DNA of 64,000 nucleotides. It comes from Homoserinibacter gongjuensis. GTDB taxonomy: Bacteria; Actinomycetota; Actinomycetes; Actinomycetales; Microbacteriaceae. Positions 28,918-31,268 of the stretch are shown in pieces. The notes under the pieces were generated by a model, which saw nothing but the letters and a program-made list of their open reading frames with translations, was not told where the DNA came from and did no database searches. Both the position numbers and the translations under genes were made by a program. Within the stretch, counting starts at the first letter, position 1. Each line of letters opens with the position of its first letter. The stretch covers positions 682,001 through 746,000 of the forward strand of contig NZ_BSVA01000001.1 in the NCBI RefSeq assembly GCF_030161875.1, written 5' to 3'.

Positions 28918-30029
28918 CTACAGCTCGACCCCCACGAACACCGGCTCGGGGTGCAGCCGCACGCCGAACTCGGCGAGCACGCGCGTCTGCACGAGGGAGG
29001 CGAGCTGGGCGACATCCGCCGCCGTCGCACCGCCGCGGTTGACGATCGCGAGGGTGTGCTTCGTCGAGATCGCGGCGCCCGAGCCGGGCAGGGTGAAGCC
29101 GCGCGAGATGCCGGAGCGCTCGATGAGCCAGGCCGCCGACAGCTTCACCTGGTACTCCGCCGAGGCGAGAGCCGGCACGTCCTCGCCGGGCGCCAGCACG
29201 CGCTCCGGCTCCTCCGACACGATCGGCCAGCGCGGGGCGTCGGCAGGCATCGCCCGTGCGAACGACTCCGACACGATCGGGTTGGTGAAGAACGAGCCCG
29301 CGCTCACCGAGTCGGGGTCGGCCGCATCGAGCACCATGCCCTTCGACGCGCGCAACGCGAGCACGGCTCGCCGGGCGTCGGCGAGAGGCACACGTTCGCC
29401 CAGCTCCACCTGCAGAGCGGATGCGAGCTGCGCGTACGCGATCGGGCCCGACCAGCCGCCCGCGTCGAGGTCGAGCTCGACGGCGAGCACGATGCCGGCT
29501 CGCCCGCGCTTGAGGGCGCTCGTACGGTAGCCGAGGCCGAGGTCGCGCGCGTCGAGGCGCATCACCTCGCCAGTCGCGTAGTCGAGGAAGTCGATGCCGA
29601 CGAGCCGCTCGCCGAGTTCCTGGCCGTGGGCGCCGATGTTCTGCACGGGTGCCGCCCCCACCGTGCCCGGGATGCCGCTGAGCGCCTCGACGCCCGCGAG
29701 GCCCGCGTCCACGGTCGCCGCGACGAGCGCGTCCCAGCTCTCCCCGCCTCCGCGCGCACGCGGGCGTGTCGCCCGTCGGCGTCGATCGCGATGTCGATGC
29801 CCCGCGTCACGACCCGGATGACGGTGCCGTCGAAGCCCTCGTCGCCGATCAGCACGTTCGAGCCGCCGCCGAGCAGCAGCCAGTCGTCTCCCGTGCGCCA
29901 GACCTCGAGCGCGGTCTGCACGAGCTCGTCGCGCGTCGCGGGCTCCACGAGTTCGCGCGCGGGGCCCCCGACCCGGAGGGTCGTGAACTCCGCGAGCGGA
30001 CGCCCCGGGTGCGACTCCACGGGCGTCAC
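28918..30029 (-). CDS. murB: UDP-N-acetylmuramate dehydrogenase (frameshifted)
   Basis: FAD enzyme that reduces UDP-GlcNAc-enolpyruvate to UDP-MurNAc in peptidoglycan synthesis, about 370 residues. N-terminal LAEFTTLRVGGPARELVEPA and LLGGGSNVLIGDEGFDG bind FAD; GIPGTVGAAPVQNIGAHGQE, SAGSFFTNPIVSE (active-site Ser) and AAWLIERSGISRGF follow. The frame breaks at the C-run 29742-29745; one base gives AEAGESWDALVAATVDAG. The GTG start at 30029 overlaps the hadB-like stop (GTGA). The hadA-hadB-murB order is common in actinobacteria. Confidence 0.93.
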
Positions 30030-30448
30030 GGCTCCAGGCGGGCGAGAACTTGCGCCTTGCCGAGCACCGTCTCGCCACGGAAGGTGACGGTGAGATCGAT
30101 GCGCGCAGCATCCTCGTCGATGCGGCCGACCTTGGCGGTCACCGTCACGACAGCACCCTCGGCAGCATCCACCACGACGGGGCGGGTGAACCGCACCTGG
30201 TAGTCGACGACGCGGCCGGCATCCCCGAGCCAGTCGACGACGGGCTGCGCGGCGAGCCCCATCGTGAGCATGCCGTGGGCGAGCACACCGGGCAGTCCGA
30301 CGGATGCGGCGACGTCGTCGCGATAGTGGATGGGGTTGAAGTCACCGGATGCGCCCGCGTAGCGCACGAGGCTGTCGCGGCTGAGTGCGAACTCGGCCTC
30401 GGCCACGACGTCACCGACGGTCAGGCTCGAGAGCGTGGGCGTGCTCAT
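30026..30448 (-). CDS. MaoC-like (R)-hydroxyacyl dehydratase, HadB type
   Basis: Hot-dog-fold subunit of 140 residues. The catalytic hydratase-2 motif is intact: YAGASGDFNPIHYRDDVAAS (Asp and His), followed by LPGVLAHGMLTMG. The C-terminal RVVDYQVRFTRPVVVDAAEG is typical of HadB. It acts with the HadA-like subunit encoded upstream, probably dehydrating (3R)-hydroxyacyl chains in lipid metabolism. In mycolate makers this complex is FAS-II; here, in a probable mycolate-free organism, the role is less clear. Start and stop overlap both neighbours. Confidence 0.88.
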   Translation of the reverse strand: MSTPTLSSLTVGDVVAEAEFALSRDSLVRYAGASGDFNPIHYRDDVAASVGLPGVLAHGMLTMGLAAQPVVDWLGDAGRVVDYQVRFTRPVVVDAAEGAVVTVTAKVGRIDEDAARIDLTVTFRGETVLGKAQVLARLEP

Positions 30449-30890
30449 TCGTCACCTCGCACGACGAGGGTGGAGGTCGCGGTGACCACGTGGGATCCGG
30501 ATGCGTCGGCCACGAGGGCGTCGGCCGTCACCATGGAGTGCCCGCCGAGGCTCTTGACGCTCGTGACGGTGAGGGTCGCCGTGAGCTCGTCGCCCGCGAC
30601 GACCGGGCGGCTGTAGCTGAAGCGCTGGTCGCCGTGCACGACACGGCTGAAGTCGATGCCTGCCTCGGGGTCGGCCAGCAGCTGCGCGAGGGCGTGCTCC
30701 TGCACGACGACCGGGAAGGTGGGCGGCGCCACGACATCCGGGTAGCCCGCTGCGCGTGCGGCCTCGGGGTCGTGGTGGAGGGGTTCGTCGCGAACACGGC
30801 ACGCGCGAACTCGCGCACCTTCTCGCGGCCGACGAGGTAGGGGGCTGTGGGCGGATAGCTCCGCCCCTGCAGCTCGGGGTTGACGCTCAC
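30445..30890 (-). CDS. MaoC-like dehydratase, HadA type (frameshifted)
   Basis: Hot-dog-fold partner of the HadB-like protein, about 148 residues. The N-terminal MSVNPELQGRSYPPTAPYLV and VREFARAVFATNP join NPLHHDPEAARAAGYPDVVA once a base is restored in the G-run at 30780-30783; the rest (PTFPVVVQEHALAQLLADPE, HGDQRFSYSRPVVAGDEL) is intact. HadA-type subunits lack the catalytic Asp-His pair of HadB and bind the acyl chain. Its stop overlaps the hadB start (ATGA). Confidence 0.88.
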
Positions 30891-30948: not shown

Positions 30949-30984
30949 GGAACCCCGGCGACCGTCGCGGTCAGCCGGGGTTCC
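30949..30984 (-). terminator. Strong hairpin after the small peptide gene
   Basis: GGAACCCCGGC / GCCGGGGTTCC with an inner GACCG-TCG-CGGTC stem and one bulged A make a 16-bp stem. There is no T-run on the transcribed strand (GTACGAAGG), as often in actinobacteria. It lies 22 bp past the peptide stop and separates it from hadA. Confidence 0.7.
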
Positions 30985-31006
30985 GGGGTCTATGCGGTGG
31001 GCCTGC

Positions 31007-31087
31007 TTACTGGCAGGACTCGCAGTAGAGGTCGTCCATCGGGTCGACCGGAACTGCGTAGCCACCGACGGTGTCGACGTCGTTCAT
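31007..31087 (-). CDS. 26-residue Cys-containing peptide
   Basis: A tiny gene with every sign of being real: strong ribosome site GAGGGAGG eight bases before the ATG at 31087, its own promoter and palindromic operator upstream, and a strong hairpin behind. The product begins MNDVDTVGGYAVPVD and ends DLYCESCQ. It is acidic, has no membrane segment, and has a CxxC pair three and six residues... from the C-terminal Gln (Cys22, Cys25 of 26). I do not recognise the family. It could be a metal- or redox-active peptide, a modified peptide precursor, or a Cys-codon leader peptide; no modifying enzyme is encoded beside it. Confidence 0.65.
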   Translation of the reverse strand: MNDVDTVGGYAVPVDPMDDLYCESCQ

Positions 31088-31134
31088 GGCAACCTCCCTC
31101 AGAAGTCTCAACTGGTGGTCCAAGGTTTTCACCC

Positions 31135-31176
31135 TGGTGAGTCACCACTATATAACGGGAATTCCACGCGTGTCAT
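31135..31176 (-). promoter_or_regulatory. Promoter with palindromic operator for the 26-residue peptide gene
   Basis: On the minus strand ATGACA (31171-31176) and TATAGT (31147-31152) are separated by 18 bp, a good sigma-70-type promoter in an AT-rich patch. The perfect palindrome TGGTGAGTCACCA (31135-31147) covers the predicted transcription start, where a repressor could sit. Confidence 0.6.
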
Positions 31177-31268
31177 TCCCCTACATGTTGTGTCTCGGCG
31201 TGTCGCGCAAACTTTTTCGATACCCGTATTCCACCAGCAACCACCGACATCCGGCGTCCATGCCGGGG

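Follow-up and report, generated by a model that had tools for sequence, protein, structure and literature searches.

A complete gene for a 26-residue peptide ending in CESCQ lies on the minus strand, at 31007-31087, of a 64,000-nucleotide stretch of the Homoserinibacter gongjuensis genome (contig NZ_BSVA01000001.1, positions 682,001 to 746,000; hereafter the window, to which positions refer), and its presence raises the question as to what so small and apparently regulated a product might do. A preliminary description of the locus had proposed a promoter, a palindrome, a ribosome-binding site and a terminator around the coding sequence (CDS) and suggested that the C-terminal CxxC could bind metal, act in redox chemistry or be modified, or that the cysteine codons could make it a sensing leader peptide. 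Our analysis indicates that the peptide (MNDVDTVGGYAVPVDPMDDLYCESCQ, ending in ...VPVDPMDDLYCESCQ) is very probably the C-terminal redox CxxC tail of the class I ribonucleotide reductase (RNR) subunit NrdA, encoded separately, detached and diffusible, a missing RNR part that the description had not recognised. RNR, an essential enzyme, has been the subject of intensive study, in which the C-terminal tail is treated as part of the large subunit, yet about half of the sampled Microbacteriaceae genomes appear to run a class I RNR with the tail as a separate peptide.

NrdA ends and the candidate tail in Microbacteriaceae

The identity of the peptide is suggested by two more distant members of the order, in which its sequence corresponds to the last 20 residues of an NrdA-like protein and is followed by the start of NrdB. 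The H. gongjuensis genome (3.29 Mb) carries a second, diverged copy at C1:410536-410598 that sits exactly between nrdA and nrdB, its GTG start overlapping the nrdA stop codon (GTGA) in another frame. NrdA itself ends in ...PRRGFGGLTS and contains zero cysteines in the approximately 60 residues past TTYYLH. It is the sole match found in this genome to PF02867, a family that leaves out anaerobic class III enzymes, and with NrdB following it is a class I enzyme. The best solved relative by sequence is the Pseudomonas aeruginosa NrdA-type chain of PDB 5im3 (E 5e-192), with which LSNC, NLCTEI, VCNL and TTYYL of the H. gongjuensis protein align, motifs whose residues we take to be those of the active-site cysteines and the YY radical pathway. 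As the tail is not covalently part of the large subunit in Microbacteriaceae we use the term detached tail.

The distribution of tails and enzymes was examined in 150 Microbacteriaceae genomes together with samples of 297 genomes from the order and 394 from the class. At E<1e-3 the tail was found in 71 of the 150 genomes and the class Ib NrdE C-terminus in 77, with an overlap of 0. Weak tail matches (E 0.02-0.8) in G064, G092, G111, G163 and G170 were excluded from the 71; four of these five carry NrdE and the fifth, G111, lacks a PF02867 match, while G095 has neither tail nor PF02867. The stronger G170 match was a 16-residue frame located right after a stop codon and was treated as no gene.

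All 66 genomes in which NrdA was placed fell within the 71 tail genomes. The stretch following nrdA was read in 65 of these, and setting aside G017, where NrdA is frame-broken in the assembly, leaves 64; no complete NrdA end was readable in G030, G069, G085, G131 and G143. None of the 64 ends contains a cysteine after TYYLH and all 64 carry an RGFG-type linker motif, which is also readable in many fused ends, and in all 10 NrdE ends (...CVSCML) and all 4 class II ends that we fetched the cysteines lie in the same frame as the enzyme. A separate open reading frame (ORF) for the tail lies between nrdA and nrdB in 60/64 genomes, with none there in the remaining 4. The offset from the NrdA stop to the nearest tail start, the script taking the start closest to that stop, was -1 in 22 and -4 in 18 of the 60, values which look like ordinary translational coupling. 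Elsewhere the tail is part of the enzyme. The order sample contains 27 genomes from other families that carry the tail, and in all 27 it is fused to NrdA; the class sample adds 21 more, of which 20 show the fusion and one is cut by a contig end. The simplest history would be one detachment event within Microbacteriaceae.

The four genomes with nothing between nrdA and nrdB (G023, G084, G153 and G167) have a tail found only in trans, its absence beside nrdA being judged by similarity searches. In G023 (0.93 Mb, one contig) the only tail found lies 33 kb from nrdA, with a regulatory box, ACACTATATATAGTAG, of the type described below, and in G084 the single tail is located on a different contig; in both, PF02867 matches nothing but the tailless NrdA, and the searches detected a single tail gene. 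The G153 tail is on a second contig, with coordinates as on the Gryllotalpicola protaetiae plasmid NZ_CP032625.1, and G167 also has a class II enzyme. Enzymes apparently dependent on a peptide made elsewhere provide the strongest argument for action in trans.

The preliminary description had named a lack of conservation in close relatives as one result that would count against a real gene; the peptide is present in 9/9 same-genus genomes including its own, seven at 100% and two at 96% identity. Similarity searches yielded 53 loci, of which 51 gave rows for comparison (40 solo copies and 11 that are nrdB-adjacent or fused) and two, the weak match L021 and the fused L022 with another motif, gave none. 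The CxxC is kept in 52 of the 53, L021 being the one without it. A ratio of non-synonymous to synonymous polymorphism (pN/pS) of 0.24 was obtained among 31 of the 40 solo loci, fewer being taken from well-sampled genera. The serine of the C-terminal motif, not part of the search pattern, is present in 31/31 of these, while the invariance of C, C and Q in them proves nothing because the pattern required those residues. Across a selection of 12 tails that included two fused ones, the residues P, D, P, C, C and Q do not vary.

Promoter and architecture of the solo gene

The promoter of the peptide gene contains a feature absent from the preliminary description, the near-palindrome ACACAACATGTAGGGG at 31178-31193 (no strand), whose core, CWANATNTWG, has its only match in the 64-kb window here, at 31181. 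We regard it as an NrdR-type box, for which the consensus is acaCwAtATaTwGtgt. A putative weaker second box, TCCCGTTATATAGTGG (31145-31160, no strand), overlaps the -10 element and is separated from the first by a 17-bp spacer. Boxes of the same type precede nrdA in this genome (CCACAACATCTAGGGT then TATATAGTG, spacer 16 bp by hand count), which also encodes NrdR itself (TIGR00244, 150 bits, above the cut-off). NrdR boxes are described as paired 16-bp palindromes in RNR promoters (PMC12176259), and for Streptomyces coelicolor NrdR binding is reported to be best with 15-17 bp spacers (PMC12051234).

Among the 51 loci the core is found upstream of 36/40 solo copies as against 0/11 nrdB-adjacent or fused copies. 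Four solo rows lack the strict core (L026, L031, L043 and L050), L050 having it with one change. Twenty further stretches were also read, 18 of which held 20 tails by pattern; five of these tails have the strict core, two have it with one change (L422 and L423, from trans-only Gryllotalpicola-type genomes) and 13 accessory copies have neither. Because nrdA, together with the tail copy in its operon, and the solo gene are each preceded by NrdR-type boxes, tail supply should rise together with NrdA when deoxynucleoside triphosphates (dNTPs) are low.

A search that made no use of the peptide gave a similar picture. The promoter-only pattern CACWANATSTWGKGGAATGACA, run over 84,980 species genomes, returned 117 sites, 114 of them with a tail ORF within 420 bp; two of the three misses are cut by the end of the stretch and the third, on a Lachnospiraceae contig, lacks a -10 element. 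TATANT is found at 116/117 sites. This result speaks to specificity, not completeness, because the pattern was designed from solo promoters. One site (L160), a Microbacteriaceae-type promoter and tail gene, is on a contig of a metagenome-assembled genome labelled Acidobacteria bacterium G2_35, possibly a binning error.

The ORF, promoter, ribosome-binding site and hairpin that had been described could all be placed on the minus strand. The -35 element ATGACA (31171-31176) and the -10 element TATAGT (31147-31152) are separated by an 18-bp spacer. The former recurs as AATGACA in nearly all listed box-bearing promoters (exceptions L020, L028 and L034), as does the -10 region TATATAGT (exceptions L020 and L028). 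The ribosome-binding site GAGGGAGG (31093-31100, minus strand) is kept in the genus alignment. The 13-bp palindrome TGGTGACTCACCA is present at 31135-31147 (no strand), but the emphasis formerly placed on it finds no support, as it is unconserved in the genus alignment and such perfect 13-mers are frequent, with 35 in the window where a naive count would give about 16; the conserved regulatory site is instead the NrdR-type box upstream of it, which NrdR would be expected to occupy. The proposed terminator, GGAACCCCGGC...GCCGGGGTTCC at 30949-30984 (minus strand), is a strong, terminator-like GC-rich stem (RNAfold, -34.7 kcal/mol for 60 nt) with no U tract after it, and the genus alignment shows a stem at the same place. 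An Rfam scan of the window returned two tRNAs and nothing else. In several solo promoters (e.g. L013, L014 and L051) the region separating the NrdR-type box from the -10 element contains an inverted repeat, GGAATGACA-N4-TGTCATTCC.

Copies on phages, plasmids and viral contigs

Translated searches (tblastn) also placed the tail on mobile elements, in four distinct phages (CMP1, CN1A, phiPsal1 and Pan2; six records) and in 19 plasmid records, mostly from Clavibacter, with weak E-values (phages 0.01-0.5, plasmids 4e-4 to 0.3). All five mobile ORFs that we read end in CxxCQ and a stop codon, that of Pan2 lacking the DPM part. A search of the four phages for PF02867 found it in none of them. In IMG/VR a coding pattern for the tail matched at least 120 contigs, and in 119 of the 120 listed a short peptide can be read from a start codon, the one exception beginning near a contig end. 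In the stretches examined, matches to the H. gongjuensis NrdA and NrdB were found in 1/120 and 4/120 respectively, and among the 80 matches listed PF02867 was found in one of the 24 whole records of at least 27 kb. Phages and IMG/VR together thus give NrdA in 1/28 whole viral records checked, an absence that is not proof because none of the 24 records is rated 90% complete.

The tail lies just upstream of a single-stranded DNA-binding protein gene on the Clavibacter plasmids pCSL2 (L151) and pCM2 (L152) and in a relaxase-bearing stretch of G072 (L426). All three are accessory tail genes with ArdC-like or relaxase genes in the vicinity, an arrangement resembling a plasmid leading region. Phage neighbours include terminase and portal genes (L273) and annotated holins or endolysins, with a holin-like protein below the family cut-off at L347. 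We consider the chances about even that the tail is a freely diffusible mobile redox peptide which Microbacteriaceae phages and conjugative plasmids carry without NrdA in order to speed up or redirect the host RNR during their own DNA synthesis, in which case a gene of about 22-30 codons would be a minimal auxiliary metabolic gene. The findings suggest a function for a class of small genes (about 22-30 codons), for the most part unannotated, that occur in bacteria, on plasmids and on more than 100 virus contigs, and viruses may possibly influence the dNTP supply of their hosts through one such gene alone.

Several individual records deserve mention. One 95-kb IMG/VR record (L324) has tail, NrdA and NrdB in that order, the NrdA carrying about 900 bp of inserted sequence in frame (open over 1136 residues, no stops), perhaps an intein. 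Two others, L337 (117 kb) and L321 (77 kb), have tail and NrdB with no PF02867 match in the record. The short ORF of Pseudanabaena phage Pan2 (L145, E 0.01) resembles a Microbacteriaceae tail, so the cyanobacterial host given for this phage may be worth verifying. On a Leifsonia sp. ZF2019 plasmid (L147, 4962-5063) the annotation of a 33-residue tail ORF reads ribonucleotide-diphosphate reductase subunit beta, a wrong name that nonetheless points to RNR.

Mechanism, alternatives and known systems

Under the mechanism that we propose, the active-site cysteine pair of NrdA would be oxidised after each turnover and the peptide CxxC, presumably re-reduced by a redoxin, would enter the NrdA active site in trans and restore it. 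The conserved VPxDPMD may dock and CxSCQ may exchange dithiols, and the solo genes together with the operon copy would allow an excess of peptide over NrdA. The earlier suggestion of a regulated product with a C-terminal CxxC acting in redox chemistry is thus supported by homology and context. A detached tail would also make the function of the flexible tail directly testable, as it can be added, titrated or swapped.

A number of points weigh against a detached working tail. The function is inferred, and a 26-residue peptide may be unstable. Relaxing the cut-off to E<=1 gives 76 tail genomes, 4 of which also carry NrdE. The second box is weak, its left half matching the consensus poorly. The CDS is almost invariant within the genus even at silent sites (pS = 0.04), and because it barely varies there the within-genus dN/dS says nothing about selection. 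It is also reported that dithiothreitol can reduce RNR active sites without the tail (PMC4520616). An operon tail copy is also present at 60 of the 64 NrdA loci, so that the solo copy may be a paralogue with a specialised or even an inhibitory role.

This last point leads to the best surviving alternative, which we nonetheless judge improbable, that the nrdA-adjacent copy is the working tail, either separate or rejoined by translational frameshifting, and that solo copies are regulators or decoys which tune or inhibit the enzyme. Where an adjacent copy exists the solo one is not the only tail, and the sequences of solo and adjacent copies do differ. The four genomes without an adjacent copy are difficult to accommodate, however, in particular G023 and G084, in each of which the searches detected one PF02867 protein and one tail gene, as are the near-universal retention of CxxC across loci and the box type shared by the nrdA and solo promoters of H. 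gongjuensis. Rejoining by frameshifting is not favoured by the -1 and -4 offsets, which in 40/60 loci resemble those of coupled genes and reflect a script that chose the start nearest the stop.

A second alternative concerns the genes downstream. A same-strand gene, not mentioned in the preliminary description, begins about 60 bp past the hairpin (GTG at 30890), and the same-strand genes there match FAS1-type and MaoC-type dehydratase and MurB Pfam families, with an aminotransferase gene on the other side. The reading frame seems to be disrupted in two of them, murB and the FAS1-type dehydratase gene (28918-30111 and 30445-30890, minus strand): the FAD_binding_4 match is divided between two frames, and the N-terminal part of the dehydratase lies in another frame. 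These breaks suggest indel errors in the assembly; the 26-residue ORF, unlike these neighbours, is supported by relatives. The neighbourhood of FAS1-type and MaoC-type dehydratase genes (30026-30890 in the window) has no explained link to ribonucleotide reduction. Similarity to the FAS1-type dehydratase on the same strand was found near 33/40 solo copies, in 29 cases at 230-350 bp downstream (distance taken from the query start), in three more than 1 kb downstream and in one upstream. Seven of the 40 have no such neighbour, the sequence at L054 ending too early to tell.

Such conservation of the neighbourhood is consistent with a common origin of the solo loci, and because it is also what a leader peptide would predict, we retain as an alternative a cysteine-responsive or redox-sensing leader that attenuates the dehydratase genes, with its two cysteine codons near the stop and a hairpin after it. 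We nevertheless consider such a leader, including the cysteine-sensing one proposed initially, very unlikely. The boxed promoter and peptide are kept at L015, L045 and L051 with no such dehydratase gene within 1.5 kb, in four of the 33 cases with that gene it lies upstream or over 1 kb away, the nrdA-adjacent, phage and plasmid copies have other neighbours, and the residues that are conserved in the peptide are the ones found at the end of NrdA in its fused form. A modified peptide (ribosomally synthesised and post-translationally modified), metallopeptide or toxin is the least credible alternative, since against the small size and C-terminal CxxC stand the homology to an enzyme C-terminus, scanned neighbours that are not maturation enzymes and NCBIfam and Pfam profile look-ups of the peptide that gave no match at E up to 10, and nothing found among the neighbouring families speaks for the metal binding or modification once suggested.

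In our reading of the peptide as a detached NrdA tail this is functionally a split RNR. A literature search, with most subscription journals outside its reach, returned no report of a detached NrdA tail, and to our knowledge the size, copy number and mobility of the peptide have no counterpart.

The closest parallel is the tail of class I NrdA and NrdE. Class I enzymes are described as having a disordered C-terminus in which two cysteines, in a CxxC in most of them, re-reduce the active site (PMC9669993). The peptide shares the two C-terminal cysteines and is homologous to the fused tails of other families; it differs in being a separate gene, often far from nrdA and with its own promoter, present in several copies in some genomes and also on phages and plasmids. 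With the NrdR regulon the locus would share a 16-bp palindromic box in the promoter, the difference being that here the box precedes a stand-alone 26-residue peptide gene. In the class II enzyme NrdJa/NrdJb of Pseudomonas aeruginosa the redox job is assigned to the separate 229-residue NrdJb, which is reported to be needed in vivo (PMC4520616), and the NrdJ of these Proteobacteria was called, as of 2015, the only split RNR in a non-viral organism (PMC4520616). In both systems thiol-disulfide exchange would be moved onto a second polypeptide, but NrdJa and NrdJb share an operon, whereas here the enzyme is class I and the second polypeptide, of about 22-30 residues and frequently unlinked, is no folded NrdJb-type subunit. 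The nrdA-a/nrdA-b pair of phage Aeh1 likewise distributes a class I large subunit over two genes, a split that the available text of PMC3653736 does not describe as a detached redox tail, whereas in Microbacteriaceae it is very probably just such a tail that has come away from NrdA.
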